40,272 bases of DNA from a virus: positions 1 to 40,272 of the IMG/VR virus record IMGVR_UViG_3300000226_000003, one strand, 5' to 3'. Below the pieces are notes generated by a model. That model was not told where the DNA came from, made no database searches, and saw only the letters and a list, made by a program, of their open reading frames with translations. Made by a program: the position numbers and the translations under genes. This document shows, piece by piece, positions 796 to 40,272 of this stretch; the first letter of the stretch is position 1, and each line of letters opens with the position of its first letter.

Positions 796-801
796 TAAAT
801 A
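796..801 (+). promoter_or_regulatory. T4-type late promoter box TAAATA
   Basis: TAAATA is followed by 4 bases and then the ATG at 806. There is no Shine-Dalgarno sequence between them, so the predicted transcript is nearly leaderless. Confidence 0.6.
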
Positions 802-805
802 GTGT

Positions 806-1099
806 ATGCGTTGGACACAAGAAACAAGAGAAGAACGAGCAAAGAGATTGAGCCAATGGCATAAATGGTTTGCTTGGCGCCCTGTCCGTGTATGGAAATT
901 AAATCCAAGAAAATCTCACAGAACACATAAAGAAATGCAGATGTTAGAACATTCTAATCAAGTTATATGGTTAGAGCGTATTATGCGAAAGTTTGAAGAT
1001 GATACTAGAATTTACGCAAGTTCACAAGAAGAAGTAACAATGATACAACTAGCAGACCCATTAATTAGACATAGAATAATTATTCGAGAGGATGATTGA
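806..1099 (+). CDS. Hypothetical protein, 97 aa
   Basis: Not recognised. The N-terminal half is rich in Arg, Lys and Trp (MRWTQETREERAKRLSQWHK, then two more W residues) and looks able to bind nucleic acid or a membrane surface. The C-terminal half is more acidic and probably helical. The start is set by the TAAATA box at 796. Its stop codon overlaps the ATG of the next gene (TGATG), so the two are probably translationally coupled. Confidence 0.7.
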   Translation: MRWTQETREERAKRLSQWHKWFAWRPVRVWKLNPRKSHRTHKEMQMLEHSNQVIWLERIMRKFEDDTRIYASSQEEVTMIQLADPLIRHRIIIREDD

Positions 1100-1302
1100 T
1101 GCCAACATATGAATATAAATGTGATAATGAAAATTGCGAACATACTTTAGAAATAACACAATCCATTAAGGATGAACCATTGGAATTTTGCCCAAATTGT
1201 GGTGAAAACACATTTAAAAGAGTACCCTCGTTATCAGCATTTATTTTAAAAGGAGATGGTTGGTATAAAAACACCACTAAACCTTCAGATAAAGACTCGT
1301 AA
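1099..1302 (+). CDS. FmdB-type zinc ribbon protein
   Basis: The 67-residue protein begins MPTYEYKC, the hallmark of the FmdB/CxxC_CxxC_SSSS family of small putative regulatory zinc ribbons. Two cysteine pairs are visible (C8 and C13 in CDNENC, then CPNC), a usual tetracysteine zinc site. The C-terminus is FILKGDGWYKN, also typical of the family. The ATG at 1099 overlaps the stop of the upstream gene and gives the family's standard N-terminus, so the TTG three bases earlier is not used. The family's molecular role is not established. Confidence 0.85.
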   Translation: MPTYEYKCDNENCEHTLEITQSIKDEPLEFCPNCGENTFKRVPSLSAFILKGDGWYKNTTKPSDKDS

Positions 1303-1310
1303 ATACGAGT
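1295..1310 (+). promoter_or_regulatory. Late promoter TAAATA (1300-1305) embedded in a perfect hairpin
   Basis: ACTCGT (1295-1300) and ACGAGT (1305-1310) form a perfect 6-bp inverted repeat around AAAT. The TAAATA box overlaps the loop, and the ATG at 1311 follows directly. Late transcripts would start at about the ATG; read-through transcripts would carry the hairpin. Confidence 0.6.
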
Positions 1311-1958
1311 ATGGTTACCTTAGAAGAAAATTCTTTGGCAACACTACTCACAAGTCACTCAACAATGAAAAAAGATAGAATCATATTAACAGATGTAGAT
1401 GGTGTCTTGCTAGACTGGGAATTCGCGTTTCATACGTGGATGGAAGAACATGGTCACACGGCAGGAAACGGACATAAACTAGTTTATAGCGTAGCAAAGC
1501 GTTTTAGTATAACTGGTAACAATGCTAAAAAATTAGTAGAATTTTTTAATGAGAGTGCTTCAATAGGCTTCCTCCCCCCATTGCGTGATGCTATGTATTA
1601 CGTAAAAAAACTACATGAGCAACATGGTTACGCATTTCACGCAATCACGTCATTAAGTTTGAATAGACACGCGATACGTTTAAGAGAACAAAATTTGTCT
1701 AAACTGTTTGGTGACACAGCATTTGAAAAAGTAGTTTGTTTAGATACTGGCGTTGATAAAGATGACGCATTAGAACCTTATAGAGATTCAGGATGTTGGT
1801 GGGTAGAAGACAAAATGAAAAATGTAGATACTGGCGAAAAAATGGGGTTACGCGGTATACTAATGGAACATGGACATAATATGGATTATGAAGGCCCTGC
1901 TTTAGTTGCTAAAAATTGGAAGGATATTTACAACTATATTACTAATCCTTCATCGTAA
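1311..1958 (+). CDS. HAD-superfamily hydrolase
   Basis: The motif LTDVDGVLLDW near residues 26-36 is HAD motif I (DxDGxxxDW, nucleophile Asp plus general acid Asp). A later ITSLS supplies the motif II Thr/Ser, and VEDK near residue 165 resembles the acidic motif IV. The layout suits a small phosphatase acting on a phosphorylated metabolite or nucleotide. The ATG at 1311 is chosen because it lies exactly 5 bases after TAAATA, like many genes here; an internal ATG at 1365 just before motif I is the alternative. Its 3' end overlaps the convergent Fe-S carrier gene by 17 bases. Confidence 0.8.
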   Translation: MVTLEENSLATLLTSHSTMKKDRIILTDVDGVLLDWEFAFHTWMEEHGHTAGNGHKLVYSVAKRFSITGNNAKKLVEFFNESASIGFLPPLRDAMYYVKKLHEQHGYAFHAITSLSLNRHAIRLREQNLSKLFGDTAFEKVVCLDTGVDKDDALEPYRDSGCWWVEDKMKNVDTGEKMGLRGILMEHGHNMDYEGPALVAKNWKDIYNYITNPSS

Positions 1959-2271
1959 AGGATTCACCACATCCACAAGATGTAGTATCTGGGATCATAA
2001 CCTTAAATGCTGGCATAAAATCACCAGTATAATCAATTGTTGCGCCAGTCATATGTGTAATTGTAAATTTATCTATAAGGAATTGTTTGCTTTCTCCTAA
2101 TTCGAAAGTAATATCACCATCTTCTAACTCTGTAGAATTTTCCCATTTGCCAATCAACCCCGAGCATCCGCCGCCATCAAGTAAATAGCGGACGTAAGGC
2201 ACGTCATTCTTAGTAGCAATTGTTAATAACTGCTTTTTTGCTGTTTCAGTTAGTGTTATATTGTATTCCAT
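1942..2271 (-). CDS. A-type iron-sulfur cluster carrier (HesB/IscA/ErpA family)
   Basis: At 109 aa it has the normal family length. The three cluster-binding cysteines are in place: C36 in GGGCSG and C99/C101 in TSCGCGESF near the C-terminus. A-type carriers deliver Fe-S clusters to target enzymes. The ATG at 2271 is preceded by a GAGAGAG ribosome site; the TTG at 2283 is less likely. It overlaps the end of the upstream glycosyltransferase-like gene by 26 bases, implying an operon. A second, divergent family member lies at 29713-30102. Fe-S carriers are known auxiliary genes in marine phages. Confidence 0.9.
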   Translation of the reverse strand: MEYNITLTETAKKQLLTIATKNDVPYVRYLLDGGGCSGLIGKWENSTELEDGDITFELGESKQFLIDKFTITHMTGATIDYTGDFMPAFKVMIPDTTSCGCGESFTMKD

Positions 2272-3163
2272 ATTCTCTCTCAAAAGTTTTCTTTAACCAA
2301 TCATAATTGTCGGAAGTATTTCTGTATTCTTCTATCCAATTATTACATATTGTAGCACATTTTATGCCGTATGTCACTCCTTCTATACAGTATTTACCAT
2401 TTTTTTGCTCCTCGCCCACAGTTGCCCAATGATTTAATCTTTCTTCAGTTTCTTTCAAATTTGAATTTAAATTTAATAAACGAAATGTAAGCCTATTTCC
2501 CATCCTGAATCCAGTTTTCCAAGCATCATACGGAGAGGAATTAAAAAAGTCTACACTAGCAATTGCATTCGGTCGAATTCCTTCGCATTTGAATGAATCT
2601 GCCTCGATTGATTTTATCGACTCTTTACTGTCTATATCGTTTATATAATTATATGGTATATTAAAATTAGTATCACACTTCCAATTGTATAGACTATCAG
2701 ATTTAAATGCTAAACCGATTGGGCTATGAGTGCCAATTTCTCCATTAACAGGATTTATAGAATTCCAAGTAATGCAATGTCTTGCTTTAACATAATCGTA
2801 ATTAAGTTCGTTGTGATCTAATGATGCTATACTTTGCAACCATTCTTGCGGTGGTTTAAAGTTAAAATCCTTACATATCATTGAATCTCCCTCTACAATA
2901 AAATAAAAAGGAGTTTCTGCTAATTCTCTGCAAGCATTATACGCATTGAGTATTCCTTTAACCCCATTTACACGTTTAGCACTAGGCACACGCTTTTTTA
3001 ATAATTCATAATGTTTATCAGCAGCTTTTTCATTATAACTCATAAACACTACGTCTAAATGTGGTTCTGGTATAGGTTTTACATCAGATAAATCAGAATT
3101 ATATTCAATAAACTTATTAACAGTTTCTAAGTCAATATATTGTTTGGTTAAATCTAACTTCAT
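2246..3163 (-). CDS. Glycosyltransferase-like (GT-A type) phage protein
   Basis: The segment DVVFMSYNEK (about residues 45-54) starts a nucleotide-sugar-binding-like beta strand. It is followed by RVNGVKGILNAYNACRELA and FYFIVEGDSM, the last resembling the D-x-D region of GT-A folds. This suggests transfer of a sugar, but key residues are not classical, so the assignment is by pattern only. The ATG at 3163 is selected because the minus-strand TAAATA box (3174-3169) sits exactly 5 bases upstream; the in-frame ATG at 3184 lies upstream of the promoter. It is transcribed away from the gene at 3203. Confidence 0.6.
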   Translation of the reverse strand: MKLDLTKQYIDLETVNKFIEYNSDLSDVKPIPEPHLDVVFMSYNEKAADKHYELLKKRVPSAKRVNGVKGILNAYNACRELAETPFYFIVEGDSMICKDFNFKPPQEWLQSIASLDHNELNYDYVKARHCITWNSINPVNGEIGTHSPIGLAFKSDSLYNWKCDTNFNIPYNYINDIDSKESIKSIEADSFKCEGIRPNAIASVDFFNSSPYDAWKTGFRMGNRLTFRLLNLNSNLKETEERLNHWATVGEEQKNGKYCIEGVTYGIKCATICNNWIEEYRNTSDNYDWLKKTFEREYGIQYNTN

Positions 3164-3168
3164 ACTGA

Positions 3169-3181
3169 TATTTAATAAATA
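3169..3181. promoter_or_regulatory. Back-to-back divergent late promoters
   Basis: TATTTA-A-TAAATA: the minus-strand box (3174-3169) serves the gene starting at 3163 (5-base spacer). The plus-strand box (3176-3181) serves the gene starting at 3203, which has a GGAAG site before its ATG. Only one base separates the two boxes. Confidence 0.6.
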
Positions 3182-3202
3182 CATATAAACGGAAGCACTA
3201 TT

Positions 3203-4189
3203 ATGAGCACGATGAAAAGTTTTATAACAACATTAGATCTGGTTATGCAGGATAAAGTTGAGCCTGAAACAGTAGTAGAAGAGGATGAGATAGAAGAAAC
3301 TCTTACTATTAATGAAGATGGTGAAATTGTAGATGAAAATTTGTTAACTGATAAACTTAAAGCTGCTGAATCAGCGGTTTTGAGCGCGACGGACATCATT
3401 ATGGGTGGCAAATATGATGAAAGTGTAGAACAAGAGTGGAAAGCCTTTGATGATCTATATGAAAATATTAAACAAACAAATAAACTCAAAGTTATGTCTG
3501 GCCAACAATTAGACGAGGCATTTACCAGGCAACATTTTGAATTATTTGCTGGTATGTTAAAAAATATTAGTGATGATGGTGCTCGTAATGATTACGCGGG
3601 TCGTTTAGTAGCAATGTTTGAGAAGGATAATCCTCGTTTTAATAAAGAACAGTTCCTACAAGCCGCAGGTATTGATACTGCTGATGAGAAAACAGAACTT
3701 GTATATGATGAAACTGGGAAGGTACATCAAATTAGACCATCTGAAGTAGATGCTTTCTTACAAGGGCATCCTGGCCGTGGTTTGGCCGAAGGAGCAGTCA
3801 ATGAAATTTGGGCACCAAGTAAAGAAATAGATGATATGGAATTCCCCACTACAGGTGTAAAGGACGGTTGGAAGAAAGGAGATAGTGAAGAATTAGTTTC
3901 ATCAGATTGGGGCTCATCAGATTGGACTGTTGCAATGGAAGCAATGTGGGATTCACTTCTTAGACAGCATGATGGCAAAGTAACTCCTGAAACAATGGAG
4001 GCGGCCGCTGAAGAAGTTATTATGGCGCATGGTGAACAAATGGGTTATGATGAAGGTTCATTTGGTGAAGGTGTTTCACAAGTTATTTCTATGTTTTTAA
4101 ATAGACAAGATGGTATAAAAGATTCGAATATGATCGGCCTAGCAAATGATACTCATAGATATGCTGGCAAAACAAAATATATGAAATAA
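3203..4189 (+). CDS. Acidic phage protein, possible structural protein
   Basis: Not recognised. The 328-aa product is strongly acidic, with an E/D-rich stretch at residues 19-50. Later parts are mixed alpha/beta with few hydrophobic runs, so it is soluble. Near the middle it reads DDMEFPTTGVKDGWKK and then SSDWGSSDW, a short internal duplication. The ATG at 3203 has a GGAAG site upstream; a second in-frame ATG follows three codons later. Late promoter control suggests a virion or assembly role. Confidence 0.7.
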   Translation: MSTMKSFITTLDLVMQDKVEPETVVEEDEIEETLTINEDGEIVDENLLTDKLKAAESAVLSATDIIMGGKYDESVEQEWKAFDDLYENIKQTNKLKVMSGQQLDEAFTRQHFELFAGMLKNISDDGARNDYAGRLVAMFEKDNPRFNKEQFLQAAGIDTADEKTELVYDETGKVHQIRPSEVDAFLQGHPGRGLAEGAVNEIWAPSKEIDDMEFPTTGVKDGWKKGDSEELVSSDWGSSDWTVAMEAMWDSLLRQHDGKVTPETMEAAAEEVIMAHGEQMGYDEGSFGEGVSQVISMFLNRQDGIKDSNMIGLANDTHRYAGKTKYMK

Positions 4190-6957: not shown

Positions 6958-6986
6958 TTATAATAAATATAATCATAATTCGGAGG
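6958..6986 (+). promoter_or_regulatory. Late promoter TAAATA (6964-6969) with strong ribosome site
   Basis: The TAAATA box lies inside a weak inverted repeat (TTATA-ATAAA-TATAA, 6958-6972). GGAGG at 6982-6986 precedes the ATG at 6995. Unlike the leaderless genes, this one has a normal leader. Confidence 0.6.
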
Positions 6987-6994
6987 TATCGATT

Positions 6995-8068
6995 ATGAAA
7001 AAGTATTTATTAGTAATGGTACTTTGTATTATATGCTCGCCCAATATCTATGCATATGATACAAACTTTTCACTACACGGATCCCGTGCTAGTTTTCTAA
7101 TGATGGATAGTAAGTGGATGACACTTAACTATCTCCATCCAAACGCAAATAAAAATGGCATGAGAGCGGCCGCCAAAGCAAATGGCGACACCCACATTTA
7201 TCTGTATAGTCGTAATGCTGGAGACAATGGCGGCGGATTTAATTTAGGACAAATAAGTCCACAGGCAGATTGGGAAACACAACTAGATGTTCTAAACGCC
7301 TCAGGTTTAAAACCAGTTATGTGGTTAACCCCAGACGATAGCAGAGCGATTACTGTCCAATCTTTGGATGAACAAAAGGCGCATTTCAATGAAGTAGTGC
7401 GTAGGTTTGATAATAAGGTAACAGGATATGTCGCTTGTTTGGAATGCGATGAATATTGGTCTCCGGCAATGGTTAATGCGTTAGTTATACACTTAAAGTC
7501 AATTACTGATAAACCAGTTGGGGTTCATTTAACATCAGGCATTGGCGGCCACAAGGGCAAAAACGAGTATTATGCTAATGCAGATTATGTCTTCCTTCAA
7601 ACAGGATGGAATAAGACTCCCGCAGAAATTACTGCAATGGTTAAACAAGCAATGGCTGTTACAGGCAAACCTGTTGTTGCTTCTGAATATGCAACAGAAA
7701 GCAGAACAGCGGCCGCCAGAGCATTAGGTGATGCGGCGTGTCGTGCTGGTGCAATAGGCACAGGCAATGGCAGAAGTGTTACACTATGTGGATACGAAGC
7801 ACCACCGCCACCAAAGAAAAAATATGACAATTACTATTATGCAGTTGGAGCACTTGTTATAGTTGCTATAGCAACTTATGTTAATTATGATTATGATGCA
7901 ACTGGAATTGAACTTAGATTTGATGCAACAGATAATTATTCCAGGTTTGGTGTTAAAAAAACATTTCAATTAACTGAGCAGAGTTCATTTAGTCTAGAGG
8001 TAGAAAATTATGAACAAGATTACAATGATGATAACCGGCTTCTTGTTAGTTATCAGTTTAGTTGGTAA
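6995..8068 (+). CDS. Exported TIM-barrel (glycoside-hydrolase-like) protein with C-terminal membrane module
   Basis: Residues 1-20 form a Sec signal peptide ending in NIYA before YD. The body resembles a (beta/alpha)8 glycoside-hydrolase-type domain: DTHIYLYSRNAGDNGGG, then LKPVMWLTPDD, YVACLECDEYW (candidate catalytic acids) and TDKPVGVHLTSG. After a proline-rich linker (APPPPKKK) comes a hydrophobic segment (YYAVGALVIVAIATYV). A beta-rich tail follows and ends in YQFSW, a terminal aromatic as in outer-membrane strands. The protein is therefore probably sent to the periplasm or outer membrane of the infected cell. The substrate is unknown. Confidence 0.65.
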   Translation: MKKYLLVMVLCIICSPNIYAYDTNFSLHGSRASFLMMDSKWMTLNYLHPNANKNGMRAAAKANGDTHIYLYSRNAGDNGGGFNLGQISPQADWETQLDVLNASGLKPVMWLTPDDSRAITVQSLDEQKAHFNEVVRRFDNKVTGYVACLECDEYWSPAMVNALVIHLKSITDKPVGVHLTSGIGGHKGKNEYYANADYVFLQTGWNKTPAEITAMVKQAMAVTGKPVVASEYATESRTAAARALGDAACRAGAIGTGNGRSVTLCGYEAPPPPKKKYDNYYYAVGALVIVAIATYVNYDYDATGIELRFDATDNYSRFGVKKTFQLTEQSSFSLEVENYEQDYNDDNRLLVSYQFSW

Positions 8069-11601: not shown

Positions 11602-11614
11602 TAAATATTATTTA
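11602..11614. promoter_or_regulatory. Overlapping face-to-face late promoters
   Basis: TAAATA-T-TATTTA. The plus box (11602-11607) is 6 bases before the ATG at 11614. The minus box (11614-11609) points to the MscS-like gene with a 28-base leader. The two would compete for the same DNA. Confidence 0.5.
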
Positions 11615-12261
11615 TGGTAAAGAAGGTAGCATTTTGTATAGGCAATGGTCAATCTCGTAAGGGGTATGATCTAGAGAAATTACGGGACGTTGGTCCATTA
11701 TATGGCTGTGGCGCAATTTGGCGTGACCATCACGTGGATAATTTAATTTGTTGTGATAAATTTAGAGCAAAAGATGCCGCAGAGCATCACGTAGAAATGC
11801 GTTCAAATTTTTATACGCGAGTAGATTATATCCCACATTTAGAGGCAGTAGGTATTAAACCACTGCCATCACTTCCTTATTTTGGATTAGAACCGCATGA
11901 ACAACCTTCAGGTTGGGATAGTGGTTTATATGCTGTACATACCGCTATACACGAAAAAGCAGATGTAATAATGTTGCTTGGTTATGACTTTTATGGTTGG
12001 GGTAAAAATCAAAGTAGAGTTAACAACATATACAAGAGAACAAAACATTATAATAAAGAGAAAAAACCACGTGATCCAATTACGTGGATTAACCAATTTC
12101 AATTGTTGTTTAAAACGCATTATACAGTAACATTTATTTTTATTAAACCTGAAAATTATCCACATCCGCCAGAGTTTGACTCGTGGAGGTATGTATTGTT
12201 TGATACGTATGAGGGATTGGATAGGTTTGCTAGTAAAAAACTAGACGATATACACAATTAA
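11614..12261 (+). CDS. Putative glycan-transfer / DUF115-like protein
   Basis: The N-terminus VAFCIGNGQSRKGYDLEKLRD, then PLYGCGAIWRD, resembles a Rossmann-like family seen in phages and in sialyltransferase-like or DUF115 proteins (GNGxS near the start). IMLLGYDFYGWG lies in the middle. It may handle a nucleotide sugar, but catalytic residues cannot be named. Late box spacing (6 bases) supports the ATG at 11614. Its stop codon shares the palindrome TTAA with the stop of the convergent gene (12258-12261). Confidence 0.5.
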   Translation: MVKKVAFCIGNGQSRKGYDLEKLRDVGPLYGCGAIWRDHHVDNLICCDKFRAKDAAEHHVEMRSNFYTRVDYIPHLEAVGIKPLPSLPYFGLEPHEQPSGWDSGLYAVHTAIHEKADVIMLLGYDFYGWGKNQSRVNNIYKRTKHYNKEKKPRDPITWINQFQLLFKTHYTVTFIFIKPENYPHPPEFDSWRYVLFDTYEGLDRFASKKLDDIHN

Positions 12262-13889: not shown

Positions 13890-14197
13890 TAATTCTTTGC
13901 GCCTTGTTGTGCTTTATTCAATTTATCTTTCAAATCCTTAGCATAGTCTTTACCAGACTGTTCTAAATTAGGATCTACTTTTCCGGTAGTAATAGTTGTG
14001 CCCAATGCTTTGTTAAATTTTGTTTCATCACTTGGTTCTGCTTTATCAGGACCTTGCTCTGTATTTTGTTCTGCTTTATTCACTAGTTGTTGCCCGGCGT
14101 CACGCACTTGTTTATTCAAAGGACTAACAGCCTTAGGACGGTTATGAGAAATCGTGCCTTGTGGTGTTTCTTCTATAAGAATTTCAGAAATTTTCAT
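13889..14197 (-). CDS. Candidate small internal head protein
   Basis: The 102-aa protein begins MKISEILIEE, with LIE at residues 7-9, matching the capsid-targeting peptide plus prohead-protease site of T4 internal proteins. The rest is polar, rich in Gln, Asn, Lys and Glu and low in hydrophobics, as expected for a small packaged protein. It is the first gene of a minus-strand pair with the 543-aa protein. No enzyme motif is visible. Confidence 0.65.
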   Translation of the reverse strand: MKISEILIEETPQGTISHNRPKAVSPLNKQVRDAGQQLVNKAEQNTEQGPDKAEPSDETKFNKALGTTITTGKVDPNLEQSGKDYAKDLKDKLNKAQQGAKN

Positions 14198-14220
14198 AAT
14201 ACTACCATATTTGTTTTCTA

Positions 14221-14228
14221 TATTTATA
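14221..14228 (-). promoter_or_regulatory. Late promoter, full TATAAATA octamer (minus strand)
   Basis: On the minus strand TATAAATA is followed by a 23-base gap to the ATG at 14197. It drives the two internal-head-protein candidates. Confidence 0.7.
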
Positions 14229-14279: not shown

Positions 14280-14285
14280 TAAATA
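14280..14285 (+). promoter_or_regulatory. Late promoter box TAAATA upstream of prkA
   Basis: TAAATA, then a leader with CAGGAG (14295-14300) and the ATG at 14309. It is the only late box visible before the PrkA-family gene. Confidence 0.6.
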
Positions 14286-14308
14286 TACATAACACAGGAG
14301 CGTGATAC

Positions 14309-16249
14309 ATGGTAAGCAAATTACTTAAAGAGTATTCTTCTAACTATCAAAGTAAAAAAGAGATAGAAATAACATTAGAAGAATATTTAACATTATGTAA
14401 GAAAGATCCATTGGCTTATGCTACATCTGCTGAACGCATGTTAGCAGCTATCGGAGACCCAGAACACGTCGATACTTCAGAAGATTCAAGATTGTCTCGT
14501 ATATTCTTGAATAGAACATTAAGAGTTTTCCCAGCATTTAAAGATTTTTATGGATTAGAAGATACAGTTGAACGAATTGTAGGCTTCTTTAAACACGCCG
14601 CGCAAGGATTGGAAGAACGCAAACAAATATTATATTTGCTTGGTCCAGTAGGTGGCGGCAAGAGTTCTTTAGCAGAACGACTAAAAGAACTAATGGAAAC
14701 ATATCCAATATATGTTCTTAAAGCAGGCGATACAATTAGTCCTGTGTATGAAAGTCCGTTATCATTATTTGATCCAGAAGTATATGGTGACCAACTTGAA
14801 AAAGAATATAAAGTGCCAAAACGTTATCTCACCGGCTTGTTAAGTCCGTGGGCAATTAAACGTTTGGACGAATTTGACGGAGATATTACTAAATTTTCCG
14901 TAGTTAAATTACAGCCTAGCAAATTAAAGCAAATTGCTGTAGTAAAAACAGAACCAGGTGATGAAAATAACCAAGATATAAGTGCTCTAGTAGGCAAAAC
15001 AGACATTCGCCAATTAGAATACTTTTCACAACATGATCCAGATTCATATGCATTTAGTGGTGCATTGTGTAAGGGCAACCAAGGCCTTATGGAGTTTGTA
15101 GAAATGTTTAAAGCACCAATTAAAGTGCTACATCCACTATTAACTGCTACACAAGAAGGCAACTACATGGGCACAGAAGGTATTAGTGCTATCCCATTTA
15201 GTGGCACAATTTTAGCACATAGTAATGAATCAGAATGGACATCATTTAAAAACAACAAAAATAACGAAGCGTTTTTAGATCGTGTATATGTTGTTAAAGT
15301 TCCTTATTGTTTGCGTATAGATGAGGAAATTAAGATTTATGATAAGATGCTAACATCTAGTGGATTAGCAAATCATGCGTGTGCCCCACAAACACTAGAT
15401 ATGTTAGGACAGTTTTCAATTTTAAGCAGATTACTTGAGCATGAAAACAGCAATTTGTTTTCCAAAATGCAAGTGTATAATGGTAAGAACTTAAAGGATA
15501 CGGATCCGCAAGCAAAGAGTCTACAGGAGTATAAAGATACTGCTGGAGTAGACGAAGGCATGTCAGGTTCATCGACACGTTTTGCTTTTAAGATTTTATC
15601 TCAGACATTCAACTTTGACACAGCGGAGATAGCCGCTGATCCAGTACATCTAATGTTTGTATTGGAACAAGCGATAAAACGCGAGCAATTTGGTGAGGAA
15701 AAAGAAAAAGCACTCATTTATTATATTAAAGAGTGGCTCTCGCCAAAGTATGCTGATTTTATCGGCAATGAAATACAGAAAGCATATTTAGAAAGTTATA
15801 GTGATTATGGACAAAACTTGTTTGATCGTTATATTCAATATGCTGACCATTGGATACAAGAGATAGATTTTAAGGATCCTGATACAGGCAACCTCTTTAA
15901 TCGTGACGTATTAAACGACGAACTAGAGAAAATAGAAAAGCCAGCAGGCATTGCTAACCCTAAAGACTTCCGTAGTGAAGTAGTCAACTTTGTTCTACGC
16001 GCTAAAGCAAAGAACAAAGGTAAAAATCCAAAATGGTCAAGTTACGAGAAACTACGTGAAATTATAGAGAAGAAAATGTTTGCGTCTACAGAGGAATTAC
16101 TTCCAATTATTTCCTTTGGTAATAAGCAAAATAAAGATGATCAACAAAAGCATGACGATTTTGTAGAGCGTATGGAGTCAAAAGGCTATACAGAACGTCA
16201 AGTGCGCCGCCTCGTGGAGTGGTTTATGCGGACCCAGAAGTCAAGTTAA
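14309..16249 (+). CDS. prkA: PrkA-family AAA+ serine kinase/protease-like protein
   Basis: The 646-aa length matches cellular PrkA (about 640 aa). GPVGGGKSS (112-120) is the Walker A motif, and the PrkA-type AAA+ core runs to about residue 400. Typical PrkA blocks are the arginine-finger region (NNKNNEAFLDRVYVVKVPY) and SGSSTRFAFKILSQTFN. The C-terminal segment is the PrkA kinase-like domain. Cellular PrkA (YeaG) works with YeaH and YcgB in starvation and stationary-phase responses; Bacillus PrkA has been described as a Lon-like protease. The same three genes follow one another here, with a homing gene between the first two. Confidence 0.92.
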   Translation: MVSKLLKEYSSNYQSKKEIEITLEEYLTLCKKDPLAYATSAERMLAAIGDPEHVDTSEDSRLSRIFLNRTLRVFPAFKDFYGLEDTVERIVGFFKHAAQGLEERKQILYLLGPVGGGKSSLAERLKELMETYPIYVLKAGDTISPVYESPLSLFDPEVYGDQLEKEYKVPKRYLTGLLSPWAIKRLDEFDGDITKFSVVKLQPSKLKQIAVVKTEPGDENNQDISALVGKTDIRQLEYFSQHDPDSYAFSGALCKGNQGLMEFVEMFKAPIKVLHPLLTATQEGNYMGTEGISAIPFSGTILAHSNESEWTSFKNNKNNEAFLDRVYVVKVPYCLRIDEEIKIYDKMLTSSGLANHACAPQTLDMLGQFSILSRLLEHENSNLFSKMQVYNGKNLKDTDPQAKSLQEYKDTAGVDEGMSGSSTRFAFKILSQTFNFDTAEIAADPVHLMFVLEQAIKREQFGEEKEKALIYYIKEWLSPKYADFIGNEIQKAYLESYSDYGQNLFDRYIQYADHWIQEIDFKDPDTGNLFNRDVLNDELEKIEKPAGIANPKDFRSEVVNFVLRAKAKNKGKNPKWSSYEKLREIIEKKMFASTEELLPIISFGNKQNKDDQQKHDDFVERMESKGYTERQVRRLVEWFMRTQKSS

Positions 16250-16265: not shown

Positions 16266-16271
16266 TAAATA
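16266..16271 (+). promoter_or_regulatory. Late promoter box TAAATA of homing endonuclease
   Basis: TAAATA followed by 5 bases and the ATG at 16277, with no ribosome site between. The box gives the homing gene its own leaderless late transcript inside the prkA operon. Confidence 0.6.
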
Positions 16272-16276
16272 CTATC

Positions 16277-16798
16277 ATGCATAAACATCATATTATACCA
16301 AAACATATGGGTGGCACTGATGATTCCTCTAATATAGTTAAGCTGTCTGTGGAAGATCATTCACTTGCTCATAAAGCACTATATGAACAACACGGCCACT
16401 GGGAAGATAAACTTGCTTGGCGGGCGTTATCTGGTATTATTGCTAAAGAAGACGTTATACTTGAGCTACAACGCGAAGCAGGGCGTAGAGTAAAATCCCC
16501 TGAAGAGCGAGCAAAGTTAAGTAAAAGTTTAACGGGCAGAACAGCATCTTTAGAGCATAGGGCAAATATAAGTAAAGGCTTGAGACTCAAGCATAGCCTA
16601 CGCCCAACATCTGCTGAAACAAAAGCAAAGATGGTAAAGGCTCATACTGGATATAAACACACACCCGAAACAAAAGAAAAGCTCAGCCTAATTGCTTCAA
16701 AAAGAATACCATCAGAATCAACTAAGAAAAAAATCAGTGAATCAATGAAAGCCTATAGAAAATCGCAACGAGATGATTCATGCCCAAGCATATTATAG
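16277..16798 (+). CDS. HNH homing endonuclease with NUMOD3-type repeats
   Basis: The 173-aa protein opens with HKHHIIPKHMGGTDDSSN followed by HSLAHKALYEQHG, the classic HNH fold of free-standing phage homing nucleases. The C-terminal half has three or four short basic repeats of the NUMOD3 type (SPEERAKLSKSLTG, SAETKAKMVKAHTG, STKKKISESMK) that bind DNA. It lies between prkA and the DUF444 gene, whose start overlaps its last 19 bases. It is a mobile gene that cuts uninvaded DNA and spreads by repair. Confidence 0.88.
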   Translation: MHKHHIIPKHMGGTDDSSNIVKLSVEDHSLAHKALYEQHGHWEDKLAWRALSGIIAKEDVILELQREAGRRVKSPEERAKLSKSLTGRTASLEHRANISKGLRLKHSLRPTSAETKAKMVKAHTGYKHTPETKEKLSLIASKRIPSESTKKKISESMKAYRKSQRDDSCPSIL

Positions 16799-22002: not shown

Positions 22003-22018
22003 GAAATGGAGGATTTAT

Positions 22019-22899: not shown

Positions 22900-22902
22900 A
22901 TA
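22897..22902 (+). promoter_or_regulatory. Late promoter box TAAATA
   Basis: TAAATA overlaps the stop of the basic peptide. A 5-base spacer leads to the ATG at 22908. Confidence 0.6.
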
Positions 22903-22907
22903 TTTTA

Positions 22908-25470: not shown

Positions 25471-25476
25471 TAAATA
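25471..25476 (+). promoter_or_regulatory. Late promoter box TAAATA
   Basis: TAAATA with 5 bases to a GTG start at 25482. An ATG at 25480 is out of frame and gives no long product. Confidence 0.6.
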
Positions 25477-25481
25477 CCTAT

Positions 25482-25784
25482 GTGGCAGTCACTCGTAAAG
25501 TTAGAACTAAAGAAGAATATATTTACGAATCTCGGGATAACGGGGTTACCGTGTCTCGACGACTGCCTTTAGGTGAACAAAAAGAATATCTTATCACAGA
25601 AGAAACTGTAGATAAAGTAAATGCGTTTAAGAAGAAGAAATTTGGTTGGCTATCCCATGATGAATTAATGGATTTGGGCCGAGAGAAATATCAACAACAA
25701 GAATTGCGTGAAAAATATCCTGCGTTGAAAGAGGCATGGGAAAAATATCTTGTATTGTTAAACCTAGTTAAATCGGGTAAATAG
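25482..25784 (+). CDS. Hypothetical protein, 100 aa (GTG start)
   Basis: Not recognised. A charged, soluble, mostly helical protein (MAVTRKVRTKEEYIYESRDN at the start, Lys/Glu-rich later). The GTG at 25482 is supported by the 5-base spacing to the late box. Its stop codon TAG is contained in the late box of the next gene. Confidence 0.6.
   Translation: MAVTRKVRTKEEYIYESRDNGVTVSRRLPLGEQKEYLITEETVDKVNAFKKKKFGWLSHDELMDLGREKYQQQELREKYPALKEAWEKYLVLLNLVKSGK
25778..25783 (+). promoter_or_regulatory. Late promoter box TAAATA
   Basis: TAAATA overlaps the upstream stop codon; 5 bases follow to the ATG at 25789. Confidence 0.6.
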
Positions 25785-25788
25785 TATT

Positions 25789-26133
25789 ATGCGTTACACT
25801 GAACTAAATGAAAGCGGCTCCATACACTGGGAAGATGAGAAATTTGATGCAGATAATCCAACTGTATTAATACGCGGGTATGGTACACTAACCTATAAAA
25901 CTCTCCAACAAGCGATCGCTAGAGATTTAGCAGAGATGTCCCAGCGGGTGGCAGATGGTAGTTTAGAAGTTGTAGCAAATCACCAATTATTTGATAGTAA
26001 AAGCGCATTCAATGGCAAAGTTCAAGCATATTTAGATGTTACTAAAGAACTAGCAAAGCCAACAATCAAGCGAAAACTCACACTTCACAAGAAAAATAGT
26101 CTATTTAATACCATAAAAAATAGTGATCAATAA
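25789..26133 (+). CDS. Hypothetical protein, 114 aa, possible packaged protein
   Basis: Not recognised. The N-terminus MRYTELNESGS contains LNE before Ser and loosely resembles the capsid-targeting/processing peptides of the three other candidates in this window, so capsid entry is possible but weakly supported. The rest is a helical, charged domain (YKTLQQAIARDLAEMSQRVA) with a basic tail. The start is given by the late box spacing. Confidence 0.6.
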   Translation: MRYTELNESGSIHWEDEKFDADNPTVLIRGYGTLTYKTLQQAIARDLAEMSQRVADGSLEVVANHQLFDSKSAFNGKVQAYLDVTKELAKPTIKRKLTLHKKNSLFNTIKNSDQ

Positions 26134-27132: not shown

Positions 27133-27743
27133 TGCAAATGTTTATCAGTTTCACAATTCATGGTTACGGTGGAGAAGTTGTTCTCGGTAAAATATCTAAA
27201 AAGGCGGCTGAATTTTGGCAATCTGAAGAAATGCAAGAATACTTGCATGGTTATGTTTTTAGTCCAGAATGGTTTGAAGAAGAAAACCCAAACATCAAAA
27301 TACCCAAGTATGCCCAAATAGGTGTGTGGCATGATATGGAAGATCGCGGGCACGAGTGGGGAGCGGCACAAGGCGGTGCGTATCTTACTATAAATGAAGT
27401 GAGCGATGATGCATGGGATGCTAATCATGTACGCGACATTTTTTATGGTGAATTAATGGATTATGTGAATGAACACGAAGTAGAAATTCATTCTGATGAA
27501 CAACATCCTAAACCAAAAGAATATACATTCTGTGGTGTTAACTCTGAGAAAGGTACATTTTACGACGGCACTATAGAAATTGAAGGAGACTTTGATCCTA
27601 AAAAAGTCTCTTTTGGTAGCACAGAAATCCATCAAGATACTCTTATTACACAAATTTTTTATGGTGATGAAACCATAGATAATTCTGGTGGAGGTACTGA
27701 TGGCAAAGCCATGGATTTTGAAATTATAGAGCCGTGGGAGTAA
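27132..27743 (+). CDS. Hypothetical phage protein, 203 aa
   Basis: The N-terminus FISFTIHGYGGEVVLGKISKKAAEFW looks like a conserved protein I associate with marine T4-like phages; I know no function for it. The product is acidic and Trp-rich, probably alpha/beta with a beta-rich C-terminal half. A GAGGAAT site precedes the ATG, which overlaps the stop of the novel-family gene, so the two are co-translated. Confidence 0.65.
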   Translation: MQMFISFTIHGYGGEVVLGKISKKAAEFWQSEEMQEYLHGYVFSPEWFEEENPNIKIPKYAQIGVWHDMEDRGHEWGAAQGGAYLTINEVSDDAWDANHVRDIFYGELMDYVNEHEVEIHSDEQHPKPKEYTFCGVNSEKGTFYDGTIEIEGDFDPKKVSFGSTEIHQDTLITQIFYGDETIDNSGGGTDGKAMDFEIIEPWE

Positions 27744-27746
27744 ATA
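27741..27746 (+). promoter_or_regulatory. Late promoter box TAAATA
   Basis: TAAATA overlaps the upstream stop codon. Spacer CATAT (5 bases), then the ATG at 27752. Confidence 0.6.
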
Positions 27747-27751
27747 CATAT

Positions 27752-28102
27752 ATGAGCCTTAAACTTGATCCAGTTGATTTGATGGTATACGCTGACGTTG
27801 CCGAAGCTTTTGAAGGATGGATTATTAATAATCCTGAAATAAAAGATGAGTCTACTGGTATTCGGCAGTCAAGAGTATTTGCTAAAACATATTTAAATCT
27901 TTATATTACATTTTTACAAATGCTTAGGTATGTTCCTAAAGAAGAGATGGAATATGAATCAACTACCGAGGAGGGAGTTAAACGTAAATTTGCCGCTATA
28001 GATGATATATATGTTAATTTAAAAGCATCTACAGAATTATCAGATGAAGATAAAGCACATATGGATTTAATTAAATCTAAAATAAAACCAACATTACACT
28101 AA
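27752..28102 (+). CDS. Hypothetical protein, 116 aa
   Basis: Not recognised. A helical soluble protein starting MSLKLDPVDLMVYADVAEAF. The ATG at 27752 is preferred over the in-frame GTG at 27734 because it lies 5 bases after the late box. The following gene starts 4 bases after its stop. Confidence 0.65.
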   Translation: MSLKLDPVDLMVYADVAEAFEGWIINNPEIKDESTGIRQSRVFAKTYLNLYITFLQMLRYVPKEEMEYESTTEEGVKRKFAAIDDIYVNLKASTELSDEDKAHMDLIKSKIKPTLH

Positions 28103-28554: not shown

Positions 28555-28560
28555 TAAATA
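28555..28560 (+). promoter_or_regulatory. Late promoter box TAAATA
   Basis: TAAATA, spacer ATGAC (5 bases), ATG at 28566. It restarts transcription right after the terminator. Confidence 0.6.
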
Positions 28561-28565
28561 ATGAC

Positions 28566-28757
28566 ATGAAGAGATTGTTCGATAAGTTTAAGAAAAATGA
28601 ACCGCCTCCTCAGAAAAGAAAGTTTGTAGCAGAAATTAGAGACACGTTTAATGAAAAGAAAATCTACAGAGCAAGGTGGGTATGGTATCATACAATCCTT
28701 GCCGCGGAATTGTTTTTAATTATTATTTTGTTGATTGGGATATTGATAAAAATTTAG
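28566..28757 (+). CDS. Small single-span membrane protein, 63 aa
   Basis: Charged N-terminal 40 residues (KRLFDKFKKNEPPPQKRK) followed by one hydrophobic helix (about 43-62, TILAAELFLIIILLIGILIK). The topology is probably N-in. The AdoMet decarboxylase gene follows 15 bases downstream. Function unknown. Confidence 0.65.
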   Translation: MKRLFDKFKKNEPPPQKRKFVAEIRDTFNEKKIYRARWVWYHTILAAELFLIIILLIGILIKI

Positions 28758-30102: not shown

Positions 30103-30109
30103 ATAAATA
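30100..30109 (+). promoter_or_regulatory. Double late promoter box (TAAATAAATA)
   Basis: Two overlapping TAAATA boxes overlap the upstream stop codon. GGGAGAG (30118-30124) precedes the ATG at 30130. Confidence 0.6.
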
Positions 30110-30129
30110 CATTAACTGGGAGAGTAGTT

Positions 30130-30912
30130 ATGATTAGTGATGCAGAAGCATTCGAGTATCTTAAATTAGAACTAAAAGAAACAGTTCTATCTCATCCAAT
30201 CATTAAGAGAAACAGATATCTTTGGTGGTTTTCTCAAACCCTAGATTTAACCAAAGAAGATCTTATTATCTTAACAAAAGAGTTTTCAGTATTTTCAAAT
30301 CAATTTATAGTTGCTCAACTACACAAAACACTTAATGCTAATAGTTTGGAACAGATGCATGACGCCAAAGAAATATTAGTAAATGAATTGGGTGTACTTT
30401 TTACAAACGAAACAGTAAACGATAGCACATTTAGATTTAAGGCCGCTCATTTTGAGTGGCTCGTTCATTTTGCAAGCAAGTTAGGTTTGGAATTTAATGA
30501 TATTGGCAAACGCAAACATGGCAGTCCATCTACATTATTTTATTGTGATGAACTAATACGTTTATATGGTAATGAAGATTTTAATGTGGGTGCAGGTGCT
30601 AGTTTTGCTGTAGAGAATTGGGCCAATGCAGGATTTTGGAAACAGTTAATGGAAGGCATAGAAAATTTTAATGCGTATAATGAAGAAGATATTACATTGC
30701 CATTACAATTTTTCTCATTTCACGATAAATTAGAAGCACAACATGCACAACATACGTGGGATGAATTACGTGAATTACATGACAATGTTAAAGAATTTGA
30801 TAAAGATAAGTTTATTGCCGCTGGTATGGAAATGCTAAATGGTGTTAATGCTTTTTGGAATGGATTAGACCAAGATCGCATAGCACGTTATTGGCATTCT
30901 ACTAGAGGTTAA
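30130..30912 (+). CDS. Haem-oxygenase-like diiron protein (HDO/PqqC-like fold)
   Basis: The 260-aa all-helical protein has spaced metal-ligand-like segments: FKAAHFEWLVHFASKLGL (about 102-119), GASFAVENWANAGFWKQL, and FFSFHDKLEAQHAQHTWDEL (about 196-215). The last fits the H-x3-(D/E)-x2-H signature of haem-oxygenase-like diiron oxidases. That group makes lipids, antibiotics and cofactors by O2-dependent chemistry. Substrate unknown. It lies next to an Fe-S carrier-like gene under its own late promoter. Confidence 0.6.
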   Translation: MISDAEAFEYLKLELKETVLSHPIIKRNRYLWWFSQTLDLTKEDLIILTKEFSVFSNQFIVAQLHKTLNANSLEQMHDAKEILVNELGVLFTNETVNDSTFRFKAAHFEWLVHFASKLGLEFNDIGKRKHGSPSTLFYCDELIRLYGNEDFNVGAGASFAVENWANAGFWKQLMEGIENFNAYNEEDITLPLQFFSFHDKLEAQHAQHTWDELRELHDNVKEFDKDKFIAAGMEMLNGVNAFWNGLDQDRIARYWHSTRG

Positions 30913-30915: not shown

Positions 30916-30921
30916 TAAATA
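30916..30921 (+). promoter_or_regulatory. Late promoter box TAAATA
   Basis: GATAAATA followed by 7 bases and the ATG at 30929, with no ribosome site. Confidence 0.55.
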
Positions 30922-30928
30922 ATATATT

Positions 30929-31762
30929 ATGAGACTTAAAGAACTTCAAATTAAAGAAGCCGCAACTGCTGGTGCAACAGCCAGTGGTAATATTGCCGCT
31001 GTTGTAAACCCACATGTTGCTAATCCTTCACGTAATTCAGTAGCATATACTGGCACACCTGGCGTATCAGGCAAAGGCCCTGTTAAACAAGTAAAGGGTG
31101 GCACATACAATACTGGTAAAAACGCTTTAGATGGTGATAAAATGTTAATGTCTAGCAAAGAACCACAAATGATTAGACGTCATATTAAAGAAGGCTCATT
31201 ATATGAAGAACAACTCAATGAATGGTTACCAGCACTTGCTATAGGTGCAGGCGTTGTAGCCGCAGGTGGTTGGGTTTTAAACAAATTCGGTAAGTGGATT
31301 AAAAAAGAACGAGGTAAAACTCAAGCTGCACTTGATGACAGTATAGCAAAAGCCACTGATGGATATTACGCAAAGCCAAAAGTAAAAGCTGATGAAGGAC
31401 ATATTACATTACCATCAATAGACACAGAACGTTATGCTGAACGTCCTGGACTAGAAGGTCCAATACGAGCACGTAATGGTAGGGTAGTTTACTATGATCC
31501 TAAGGAAGGCCAGTATTACGATCCAGATACAGACATATATATTTCTAATGATGACTGGAAAGCAATGAACGAAGGTCTAAAAATTGAACCGCGTGGCGAA
31601 GCAGGGAAAGCAAATGCGTTTAAAGGAATGATGGCGAATGCATCTAAAAATAAAGAAACGCGAGCAATTAATACAGAAAAATCCAAGAGACAAACTGCTC
31701 AAGCCGCTGGATATAGAGCAATTGTAGGCGGAAAAGACGTATCTCAAATAGCCAAAGGCTAA
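30929..31762 (+). CDS. Candidate packaged / processed head protein
   Basis: The 277-aa protein begins MRLKELQIKEAATAG, like T4 capsid-targeting peptides, with IKE before A11 as a prohead-protease site. Two more (L/I)xE sites lie at 86-88 (IKE) and 96-98 (LNE), just before a hydrophobic segment at 99-117 (WLPALAIGAGVVAAGG). The region between is Gly/Ala/Ser-rich and the C-terminal half is basic. This suggests processing in the prohead into several peptides and possibly membrane insertion on injection. It has its own late box. Confidence 0.65.
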   Translation: MRLKELQIKEAATAGATASGNIAAVVNPHVANPSRNSVAYTGTPGVSGKGPVKQVKGGTYNTGKNALDGDKMLMSSKEPQMIRRHIKEGSLYEEQLNEWLPALAIGAGVVAAGGWVLNKFGKWIKKERGKTQAALDDSIAKATDGYYAKPKVKADEGHITLPSIDTERYAERPGLEGPIRARNGRVVYYDPKEGQYYDPDTDIYISNDDWKAMNEGLKIEPRGEAGKANAFKGMMANASKNKETRAINTEKSKRQTAQAAGYRAIVGGKDVSQIAKG

Positions 31763-38558: not shown

Positions 38559-38580
38559 TAAATAGTCCGAGGGAGGACTA
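38559..38580 (+). promoter_or_regulatory. Late promoter overlapping an RBS-sequestering hairpin (HNH gene)
   Basis: GATAAATA ends at 38564. TAGTCC (38563-38568) pairs with GGACTA (38575-38580) around GAGGGA. The ribosome site GGGAGG (38571-38576) lies partly in the stem and the ATG is at 38585. Transcription from the late box would start in the loop and so lack the 5' arm, freeing the ribosome site. Confidence 0.65.
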
Positions 38581-38584
38581 ACTA

Positions 38585-39064
38585 ATGATAGGAACATGTA
38601 AAGTTTGTAGTAAAGAGTTTAAATATTTCCCTAGTCAATCTAAAGGACAATATTGCTCAAATAAGTGCCAAGGTGCGTTAAGGGCAGAAGTTACTAAAGC
38701 GAAGTGGCGTGTCCATTACGAAGAAGGTGCTGATATAGGGAGACCGAGACAGCGTCAGATGTTAACAGAAGATCATGGGTATAATTGTAGTGTATGTAAG
38801 TTAAGTGAATGGCAAGATAAGCCTATTACATTACAAGTAGATCATATAGATGGTAATGCTGATAACAACGATAAGAAAAATTTACGACTTATATGTCCAA
38901 ATTGCCATAGCCAAACAGATACATTTGCTGGAGGTAATAGAGGACAAGGTCGTTGGAGTAAGGGTTTGAAAGACAGATACAAAGGACAATCTTTTACGCA
39001 TGGTAAGATCCGGGTCCGGCCGGGATCCTTCGGGAACAAGAATGGCTCCCTCTCCACCAAATAA
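38585..39064 (+). CDS. HNH endonuclease inserted in the tRNA array
   Basis: The 159-aa protein has an N-terminal zinc finger (CKVC at 5-8, then C24 and C28) and an HNH core: CSVCKL, LQVDHIDGNADNNDKKNL and CPNCHSQTD (zinc-stabilised H-N-H). It is a homing-type nuclease sitting between tRNA-Ile and tRNA-Thr. The last 20 codons are abruptly GC-rich and end in a tRNA-like TCCACCA. Its stop overlaps a TAAATA box (39062-39067). Expression is probably limited to late infection by the hairpin upstream. Confidence 0.85.
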   Translation: MIGTCKVCSKEFKYFPSQSKGQYCSNKCQGALRAEVTKAKWRVHYEEGADIGRPRQRQMLTEDHGYNCSVCKLSEWQDKPITLQVDHIDGNADNNDKKNLRLICPNCHSQTDTFAGGNRGQGRWSKGLKDRYKGQSFTHGKIRVRPGSFGNKNGSLSTK

Positions 39065-39394: not shown

Positions 39395-39469
39395 TCCCTA
39401 GAGCGCGCAAGGTGTGCGAGGTGACTGTTAATCACTTGTGGGTTGGTTCGATTCCAACCTAGGGAGCCA
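39395..39469 (+). tRNA. tRNA-Asn (anticodon GUU)
   Basis: Acceptor TCCCTAG / CTAGGGA, discriminator G, CCA. Stem GGTGA / TCACT, loop CTGTTAA (GTT). Confidence 0.92.
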
Positions 39470-39472
39470 AAT

Positions 39473-39546
39473 GCGGGTGTAGCTCAGCGGTAGAGCCTCT
39501 CGTTGCCAACGAGAATGTCGTCAGTTCGAATCCCACCCTCTCCGCC
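39473..39546 (+). tRNA. tRNA-Gly-like (anticodon GCC), mispaired, possibly chimeric or decayed
   Basis: D arm, anticodon stem (TCTCG / CGAGA) and loop TTGCCAA are perfect for tRNA-Gly. The acceptor 5' strand GCGGGTG meets CCTCTCC with two mismatches and two G-U pairs, and the T stem GTCAG / CCCAC has two mismatches. The 3' end CCTCTCC-G-CCA looks like that of a tRNA-Ser. Function is doubtful. Confidence 0.65.
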
Positions 39547-39547
39547 A

Positions 39548-39553
39548 TAAATA
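39548..39553 (+). promoter_or_regulatory. Late promoter box TAAATA
   Basis: One base after the last tRNA. Spacer TTGAT (5 bases), then the ATG at 39559. Confidence 0.6.
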
Positions 39554-39558
39554 TTGAT

Positions 39559-40272
39559 ATGAGTTATTCTACAATTATAAAATATATTCCTGAAGAATAT
39601 ACACAATATCTTATTCAATATCACAAAGAAAATAAACATAATTATGATATCTTTGATTGGGAAGAAGATGACCTTTTTTTACAGATGTGGGGATTAACTG
39701 AAAAAAGTAAAATATCTGGCCGTAGTAAAATATCTGGCCGTTACGGTGCTACAAATTGGCAATCCAATCATGCTATGGATGATCCACTAGCACGCTCATC
39801 AGCCGGTGTCTTATCAATTGGAAGCATCATTTGGACGTTCGTGCGGCGGATTACGTCACCAATTCCTACAAGAAAAGGTGAGGTATATGACAAATGCGAG
39901 ATTGAAATGAATCTAATAGTAAAGAAAATTTTAGATTTATTTAACGTAGAATATACTGAATTTGAAGCATTTATTAAAACTTCTTATTTACCAATTTCTT
40001 TACACGTTGATGCGAATCGTTATGAAGGGCCCACTACTTCACATAATAATTGGGATGGTAAAGTACCTTCTCAGCGTCAGGATGGAAGTGATTCAAAACA
40101 AGGAATATCTATTATAATACCACTAACATTTAATAAAGATATCCATACTATAATATTTAAAAATATCGCAGAAGATAATGATTATGTTCAAGATTTTCAA
40201 GATGTAGTTTCTGGTCTTTATGAAGAACCCAATCCCAAAGAGCACCAAGCGTTGACGCGAGCCATTGGCGGG
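39559..40272 (+). CDS. Possible 2-oxoglutarate/Fe(II) oxygenase-like protein (3' end cut by window)
   Basis: The frame is open to the last base (238 codons seen). SLHVDANRYEG contains an H-x-D pair, as in Fe(II)/2OG dioxygenases, followed by GISIIIPLTFN, like the core double-stranded beta helix. The distal His and Arg would come later or lie outside the window, so the family call is tentative. The N-terminal part has a duplicated KISGRS segment. The start is supported by the 5-base spacing to the late box; the gene directly follows the tRNA array. Confidence 0.6.
   Translation, partial: MSYSTIIKYIPEEYTQYLIQYHKENKHNYDIFDWEEDDLFLQMWGLTEKSKISGRSKISGRYGATNWQSNHAMDDPLARSSAGVLSIGSIIWTFVRRITSPIPTRKGEVYDKCEIEMNLIVKKILDLFNVEYTEFEAFIKTSYLPISLHVDANRYEGPTTSHNNWDGKVPSQRQDGSDSKQGISIIIPLTFNKDIHTIIFKNIAEDNDYVQDFQDVVSGLYEEPNPKEHQALTRAIGG
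39706..39741. repeat. 18-bp perfect tandem duplication inside a gene
   Basis: AGTAAAATATCTGGCCGT occurs twice in a row (39706-39723, 39724-39741), in frame, duplicating six residues (SKISGR) of the protein at 39559. Confidence 0.9.

Follow-up and report, generated by a model that had tools for sequence, protein, structure and literature searches.

The viral contig IMGVR_UViG_3300000226_000003 (40,272 nt, analysed over its whole length and hereafter called the window) repeatedly carries the hexamer TAAATA exactly 5 nt before a start codon. The hexamer is shared with late promoters of the bacteriophage T4 type, and the locus raises the question of whether such promoters are set here so close to their genes that transcription would begin at the start codon itself. 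Our best explanation is that gp55-type late promoters produce leaderless mRNAs at genes where 4 to 6 nt separate box and start codon (N4-N6), a reading to which we assign a probability of about 0.85. Longer IMG/VR records of the same phage exist, G001 (100 kb) and G003 (322,647 bp), and the window lies letter for letter inside the reverse complement of G003. The gene-by-gene analysis covered the window, seven of 20 records (given here as G numbers) and the isolated pelagiphage HTVC008M.

The N5-spaced boxes are real and occur far above chance. All nine N5 sites claimed in the initial annotation were found where it had placed them, opening open reading frames (ORFs) of 63-305 amino acids (aa), and the positions it gave for an N4 (796), an N6 (11602) and an N7 box (30916) are also correct. 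TAAATA-N5-ATG occurs 10 times in the window against a mean of 1.85 in 100 shuffled sequences (standard deviation 1.29, maximum 5), which answers positively the shuffle check proposed at the outset, and there is one TAAATA-N5-GTG besides. TAAATA as such is not enriched (65 copies vs 88 expected). When 15 hexamers of the same composition were combined with 31 spacings, TAAATA at N5 was the outlier among the 465 combinations, with 10 ORF-opening matches and a runner-up of 4. The full T4 box TATAAATA followed by N5-ATG has no match in the window; the box is TAAATA and not the complete TATAAATA.

On the plus strand, N5 boxes before ATG lie at 1300..1313 (start 1311, 215 aa, phrog_420, function unknown), 16266..16279 (start 16277, 173 aa, homing-endonuclease-like), 22897..22910 (start 22908, 174 aa), 25778..25791 (start 25789, 114 aa), 27741..27754 (start 27752, 116 aa), 28555..28568 (start 28566, 63 aa) and 39548..39561 (start 39559, the ORF running off the window); the boxes at 1300 and 27741 share bases with the TAA stop codon of the ORF before them. 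The GTG case is at 25471..25484 (plus strand, start 25482, 100 aa) and the minus-strand gene at 3161..3174 (start 3163, 305 aa). Other close spacings before ATG, all on the plus strand, are those at 796..808 (N4, start 806, 97 aa, a predicted leaderless late gene), 11602..11616 (N6, start 11614, 215 aa) and 30916..30931 (N7, start 30929, 277 aa). The arrangement is kept in the G005 orthologues of 796 (with N4 retained), 11602, 25471 and 25778, and in both G005 and G006 for 3161..3174 and 27741. Two N5-ATG sites come on top of those originally listed: at 21990..22021 (plus strand) one box precedes two in-frame ATGs, at N5 (22001) and at N23 behind GGAGG (22019), both equally good starts, and a site at 5104 on the minus strand, opening a 44-aa ORF antisense to another ORF, is probably spurious. 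The box at 39548 starts 5 positions past the last tRNA gene of an array; this tRNA gene closes a run of six (region 39075-39561), and the start codon then follows at N5.

A scan of related genomes, likewise suggested with the first description of the sites, revealed clear enrichment of TAAATA at N5 in several relatives with genes called by a codon-usage and coding-potential script blind to the box and starts picked by coding score alone. Hexamer-at-spacing enrichment was computed on scored ATG starts only, and the comparison genomes were analysed over 200 of 252 kb (P-SSM2), 240 of 288 kb (Cassandra), 400 of 635 kb (a mahaphage) and 150 of 156 kb (Cr30). TAAATA at N5 is the top signal in G003 (26 observed vs 1.35 expected), above Shine-Dalgarno (SD) motifs, and also in G005 (18 vs 0.85), G006 (19 vs 0.98) and G018 (33 vs 1.33; GC 59%). 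The top two signals of G014 (GC 55%) are TAAATA at N4 and N5 (17 and 16 vs about 1.2), and in HTVC008M the N5 signal ranks third (9 vs 0.56), so that the N4/N5 peak is found in relatives spanning 35-59% GC. Gene-anchored counts gave no N5 peak in T4, S-PM2 and the mahaphage, 3 sites in P-SSM2 and 2 each in Cassandra and Melnitz-3, and over the first 150 kb of Cr30 each of the ten strongest hexamer signals is of SD type.

Our main claims rest on these gene-anchored counts because pattern counts without an ORF filter are noisy in AT-rich records. Unfiltered, two mahaphages gave 40 and 31 N5 patterns vs 35 and 33 in reversed controls. Without anchoring, N5 boxes open 40 ORFs of 40 aa or more in G003, 35 in G018, 25 each in G014 and G005, 21 in G006, 14 in G010, 12 in HTVC008M and 7 in G019; the 279-kb record G017 has no N5 site, and T4 has none with the full TATAAATA. 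Across 34 further contigs (32 found through gp55, 2 through PrkA) N5 patterns totalled 178 vs 92 reversed and were higher in 27 of the 34, very unevenly and on counts that are not gene-anchored. Phage OC has 7 N5 sites vs 2 in the reversed control but also 8 at N9, and Atu_ph07 is ambiguous (15 at N5, 11 at N9, reversed control 9). An alphaproteobacterial host was considered as the cause, HTVC008M being a phage of SAR11, and is not supported: phiM12, phiN3 and Cr30 have no N5 sites.

The boxes fall into two spacing classes. Counted at motif-blind ATG starts, boxes at 4-6, 8-18 and 20-40 nt number 51/2/42 in G018, 35/6/34 in G014, 34/10/33 in G003, 25/6/27 in G006, 23/8/25 in G005 and 11/6/9 in HTVC008M; the close class is much smaller in G010 (9/5/46) and G019 (6/4/28). 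The comparison phages gave 0/7/22 (T4), 0/1/27 (S-PM2), 2/7/30 (Cassandra), 2/5/19 (Melnitz-3), 3/9/29 (P-SSM2) and 13/35/30 (mahaphage). Close and distant boxes are about equally numerous in G003, G005, G006, G014 and G018, and the gap at 8-18 nt is expected if a start codon sits either at the 5′ end of the RNA or far enough from it for an SD site. For class sizes and SD content, the leaderless class was defined as genes with an N4-N6 box before an in-frame ATG or GTG located between 120 nt upstream and 75 nt downstream of the scored start, which yields 43 genes in G003, 29 in G005, 26 in G006, 43 in G014, 54 in G018 and 14 in HTVC008M. SD-like 4-mers precede 2-14% of this class, against 42-79% of leadered genes and 29-50% of the rest; little SD sequence in the close class agrees with the earlier prediction of mRNAs that lack an SD site.

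The existence of two classes also holds within the window. The four genes described at first as having normal leaders (6995, 14309, 19860 and 30130) all present an SD-like sequence and a box 20-25 nt upstream. Their promoters, all on the plus strand, are at 6964..6997 (N25 to ATG 6995, SD GGAGG), 14280..14311 (N23 to ATG 14309 of the PrkA/YeaG-like gene, SD AGGAG), 19829..19862 (N25 to TTG 19860 of the elongation factor G (EF-G) gene, SD-like TGGAG) and 30104..30132 (N20 to ATG 30130, SD-like GGGAG). Further leadered boxes are found at 38559..38587 (plus strand, N20 to ATG 38585, SD GGGAGG), at 14197..14226 on the minus strand (N23 to ATG 14197) and at 3176..3205 on the plus strand (N21 to ATG 3203). 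The latter stands back to back with the divergent box of 3161..3174: within 3161-3205 a single nucleotide separates two TAAATA boxes on opposite strands, of which one is leaderless and the other leadered.

Promoter geometry offers a reason for the preferred distance. According to PMC1524935, the T4 box TATAAATA spans -13 to -6 relative to the transcription start. As the box ends at -6, the sixth base after it corresponds to +1, and a spacing of 5 nt places the A of ATG at that position. The base composition after leadered boxes, which serves as an internal check, points in the same direction, the sixth base being A in 64 of the 98 leadered promoters of G003, G005 and G006 (background 0.40, p 2e-7). 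The same base is the A maximum in G010 (28/48), G019 (19/32) and Cassandra (23/33); it is also the maximum in T4 (12/21), with a p of 0.18 that is not significant alone, and ties for the maximum in Melnitz-3 (16/22). The spacing, the T4 geometry and this A at the predicted +1 together support the proposal in the initial annotation that a T4-type box is aligned with the start codon. Upstream of virion genes of G003 and HTVC008M the TATAAATA-like box is reduced to the TAAATA core, the leading letters TA not being conserved.

A candidate reader of the box is encoded as well. A gp55-like late sigma factor (phrog_234) was detected in six of 14 records, G003 (E 1e-24), G006, G010, G012, G018 and G019, and gp55 is annotated in HTVC008M. 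The closest isolate gp55 to that of G003 belongs to Pseudomonas phage Cassandra (46%), followed by Escherichia phage UB, K64-1 and CBB. The G003 protein (110978-111817, minus strand) has 279 aa, of which residues 150-240 match T4 gp55 (185 aa), with extra sequence ahead.

The leaderless state is conserved between related phages. Among reciprocal best hits, both members carry a close box in 22 G003-G005 pairs (3.9 expected), 13 G003-G006 pairs (2.5 expected) and 19 G014-G018 pairs (2.2 expected), and orthologue pairs retain box and spacing while spacers and flanks often diverge, some pairs switching between N4 and N5. Sharing across distant clades is low (0/26 pairs for G003-HTVC008M, 2/89 for G003-G018), which implies that the set of leaderless genes turns over.

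Many of these genes have virion functions in the relatives. PHROG was scanned with 19 predicted-leaderless proteins, 18 of the 43 from G003 and an orthologue from G005. Of these, 9 fall into virion or packaging families or PAAR and 7 have no match; the matches include the large and small terminase subunits (the small one weakly), a head-tail adaptor, baseplate wedge proteins, a tail-fibre connector, PAAR, a tape measure protein (weakly) and a virion structural protein. In HTVC008M the box-defined starts agree with the GenBank starts in 13 of 13 genes within the fetched stretches, the fourteenth lying outside them. N5 start codons of this phage include those at 6280, 7562, 16007 (minus strand), 18916 (minus strand), 18943, 19456, 31132, 49760 and 75830. 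This class comprises a DNA end protector, head closure, baseplate tail tube cap, baseplate wedge subunit, baseplate wedge initiator, tail completion, tape measure and CsgF proteins, the remainder being enzymes or hypothetical proteins; the major head protein, the portal and the protease of HTVC008M fall outside it.

A recurrent N-terminus was noticed in two of the genomes. The pattern ^M[RK].{1,3}[EDQNK][IFLVMY].{0,5}E, composed after viewing the G018 and G014 lists, fits 20/54 leaderless genes of G018 and 18/43 of G014, vs 15/726 and 6/501 of other genes; it fits 4 of 11 in G010 and shows no significant excess in G003, G005, G006, G019 and HTVC008M. The motif is reminiscent of the capsid-targeting sequence that internal head proteins of T4 carry. 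One G018 leaderless gene encodes an ADP-ribosyltransferase domain (PF18760, E 1.1e-20; Pfam covered 10 of the 54 genes), and the motif-bearing leaderless genes of G018 and G014 (loci L098-L137 and L207-L216) are candidates for injected cargo proteins.

Taken together, we propose that a phage gp55-like sigma factor reads TAAATA as the core of a T4-type late promoter. Boxes 20-40 nt upstream would give leadered mRNAs, usually with an SD site, while at boxes separated from the start codon by 4-6 nt, in most cases by exactly 5, RNA polymerase would begin at the A of AUG, give or take a base or two. Such leaderless mRNAs would then be translated by initiation that depends on the 5′ AUG and not on an SD site.

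Several observations weigh against this proposal. The N5 peak is weak in G010 (8 vs 1.20) and G019 (only 3 sites), and no gp55 match was obtained in G014 despite its strong N5 peak. Searches with phrog_223, a gp45 profile and a single gp33 query recognised no homologue of the sliding clamp gp45 or the coactivator gp33 in the G003 clade, G010, G014 or G018: phrog_223 matched one of 14 records (G019, E 1.6e-9), the profile built from T4, HTVC008M and Cr30 gp45 matched HTVC008M, T4, S-PM2, P-SSM2 and weakly G019, and the query, gp33 of Syn9, matched only HTVC008M and T4. At leadered promoters of G014 and G018 the A preference is spread over bases 5-8 with a peak at base 8, and HTVC008M (11 sites) and the cyanophages give no clear A signal after leadered boxes. 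Because the box itself fills -11 to -6, the scarcity of SD sequence in the close class is to some extent inevitable. Matches to virion families are lacking for all 12 N4-N7 genes of the window, four of which have a PHROG match of any kind, so that the label "late" rests here on the box and on the relatives. Finally, many leaderless genes have an upstream same-strand neighbour no more than 30 nt away (G003 22/43, G005 19/29, G006 14/26, HTVC008M 8/14, G014 11/43, G018 17/54), and for these a read-through mRNA could also serve.

That last point bears on an explanation in which TAAATA is a true late promoter that merely raises RNA levels, while most productive translation would use longer read-through transcripts, through coupling or reinitiation. 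The close same-strand neighbours speak for it, as do gene ends falling inside the promoter stretch in 8/43 (G003) and 11/54 (G018) cases; yet in G018 26 of the 54 genes of the class, and in G014 19 of the 43, have their nearest upstream neighbour on the opposite strand, and G018 has only 2 boxes at 8-18 nt. We hold read-through translation to be unlikely as the general explanation. Even less likely is that TAAATA-N5 acts as an unusual ribosome-binding element in place of the SD sequence. Such an element would share with the SD sequence a fixed distance to the start codon, but the same hexamer also stands 20-40 nt upstream of genes that mostly do have an SD site, it matches the T4 and cyanophage late box (PMC1524935 and PMC2984593), a gp55 homologue is encoded, and the +1-like A appears at the same distance after leadered boxes.

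The spacing could also be fixed by descent, through copying of one cassette of promoter, start codon and N-terminus, and not by selection. The similar N-terminal peptide of 20/54 (G018) and 18/43 (G014) leaderless genes would fit, but that N-terminus is found in only 1/43 (G003) and 0/14 (HTVC008M) members of the class, and spacers and flanks vary among sites, as judged by eye, and often between orthologues; we consider copying highly improbable. Chance in AT-rich DNA, or overlap of a TAA stop with a start, has practically no probability left. Some boxes do start on an upstream TAA stop (1300, 27741), but the count of 10 vs 1.85 in shuffles, the persistence of the peak at 55-59% GC and the conservation between orthologues refute this account, and AT-rich T4 and Cassandra have no such peak. 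Leaderless messages from gp55-type promoters remain our preferred reading.

T4 late transcription is a textbook system, with boxes well upstream of SD-led starts. The present phages resemble it (gp55/gp33/gp45-dependent TATAAATA), and likewise the cyanophages (NATAAATA) and Aeh1 (CTAAATA), in the TAAATA core and the gp55-type sigma factor, and further in the late structural genes of relatives and in the same deduced distance from box to +1. They differ in spacing: T4, S-PM2 and P-SSM2 (first 200 kb) have 0, 0 and 3 boxes at N4-N6 vs 22, 27 and 29 at 20-40 nt. The jumbo T4-type phages Cassandra, UB, Klebsiella phage K64-1 and Pectobacterium phage CBB are similar in gp55 (38-46% identical over 93%), and ATAAATA late-type promoters are described for CBB in PMC5259590; unlike the window's clade they have no N5 excess (14, 6, 7 and 4 vs 12, 12, 19 and 10 reversed, gene-anchored for Cassandra only).

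The isolate HTVC008M shares the TAAATA-N5-ATG class and also encodes gp55 and the ribosomal protein bS21; this T4-type phage differs in being a 147-kb member of Kyanoviridae. We found no published report of leaderless late genes in this phage, and a survey of pelagimyophages states that late-promoter prediction was unsuccessful in the group (PMC7029224). The closest precedent found for leaderless phage messages is Thermus phage phiYS40, for which PMC3594737 reports middle and late mRNAs mostly without leaders and altered IF2 and IF3 levels. Its host is a different one, and in the phages studied here leaderless and leadered classes coexist with one box; the phiYS40 record contains 5 TAAATA-N5-ATG vs 1 in the reversed control, a pattern count that is not gene by gene. 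Among the listed titles and abstract openings from the openly licensed literature, none reports leaderless late mRNAs in T4-type or huge phages.

A possibly parallel leaderless architecture was seen in LR745206 (loci L244-L263, first 400 kb). There a different motif keeps a fixed distance: 58 of 498 genes have TATATA, within TTAATATATA, ending 4-5 nt ahead of their ATG. The distances show another hump at 18-26 nt, and SD sequences are nearly absent (16/498). This record, together with LR756502 and LR756504, comes from uncultured phages of ~640 kb, which we take to be mahaphages, and their PrkA-like proteins are 60-63% identical to that of the window. Besides the PrkA/YeaG-like gene and EF-G, the window encodes a sporulation-protein-like product (phrog_10856) and 12 tRNA genes. 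A PrkA/YeaG-like gene 67% identical to that of the window's phage is also found at the start of MN688132.1 (Enterobacter phage LAU1, 30,772 bp), a record that may be a wrongly assigned piece of a huge-phage genome.

The suggested link between leaderless translation and the phage's own EF-G (19860..21959, plus strand; phrog_6880, E 3.7e-127) was not supported. EF-G domain IV is present in only three of eight positive genomes (G003, G005 and G006); it was not found in G010, G014, G018, G019 and HTVC008M, and it occurs in two mahaphages without a TAAATA-N5 peak. Phage bS21, by comparison, was detected in all eight leaderless-positive genomes analysed gene by gene, G010 and G019 being only weakly positive. 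No bS21 was found in T4, P-SSM2, S-PM2, KVP40, UB, K64-1, CBB, OC, phiM12 and Cr30, and these ten have no clear N5 excess, six of them judged by pattern counts alone. The protein is also carried by Cassandra and Melnitz-3, where the class is absent and for which reason bS21 was rejected as a sufficient cause, by two mahaphages without the peak and by the ambiguous Atu_ph07. Weighing against a role for bS21 is the 107-kb fragment G016, with 12 N5 sites vs 6 reversed and no bS21 found. In the wider sample bS21 occurs in six of 34 contigs, mostly fragments in which absence is not interpreted. The association is confounded by shared ancestry.

According to PMC6375957, the bS21 of HTVC008M is incorporated into 70S ribosomes of E. 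coli, and these yield about 5% of control GFP, a drop for which its authors propose incompatibility or missing factors; to us it is suggestive of a ribosome preferring other mRNAs. Kasugamycin-induced ribosomes without S1, S2, S6, S12, S18 and S21 are described in PMC7069363 as restricted to leaderless mRNAs. One may speculate about a coordinated switch, in which leaderless late mRNAs made by the promoter would be joined by a phage bS21 that replaces the host copy on the 30S subunit and favours 5′-AUG over SD-led messages; we regard this as a rather doubtful extension.

It seems that the T4-type promoter has been shifted onto the start codon at many genes, both in a group of large phages and in at least one pelagiphage available in culture. 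For many late proteins of these phages, synthesis probably starts independently of SD sites. The N5 rule gives exact predictions of start sites and start codons, and the short spacing could explain why late-promoter searches in pelagimyophages failed (PMC7029224) and why gene callers trained on SD sites may misplace starts. The question of why many large phages carry bS21 becomes testable in a cultured phage.

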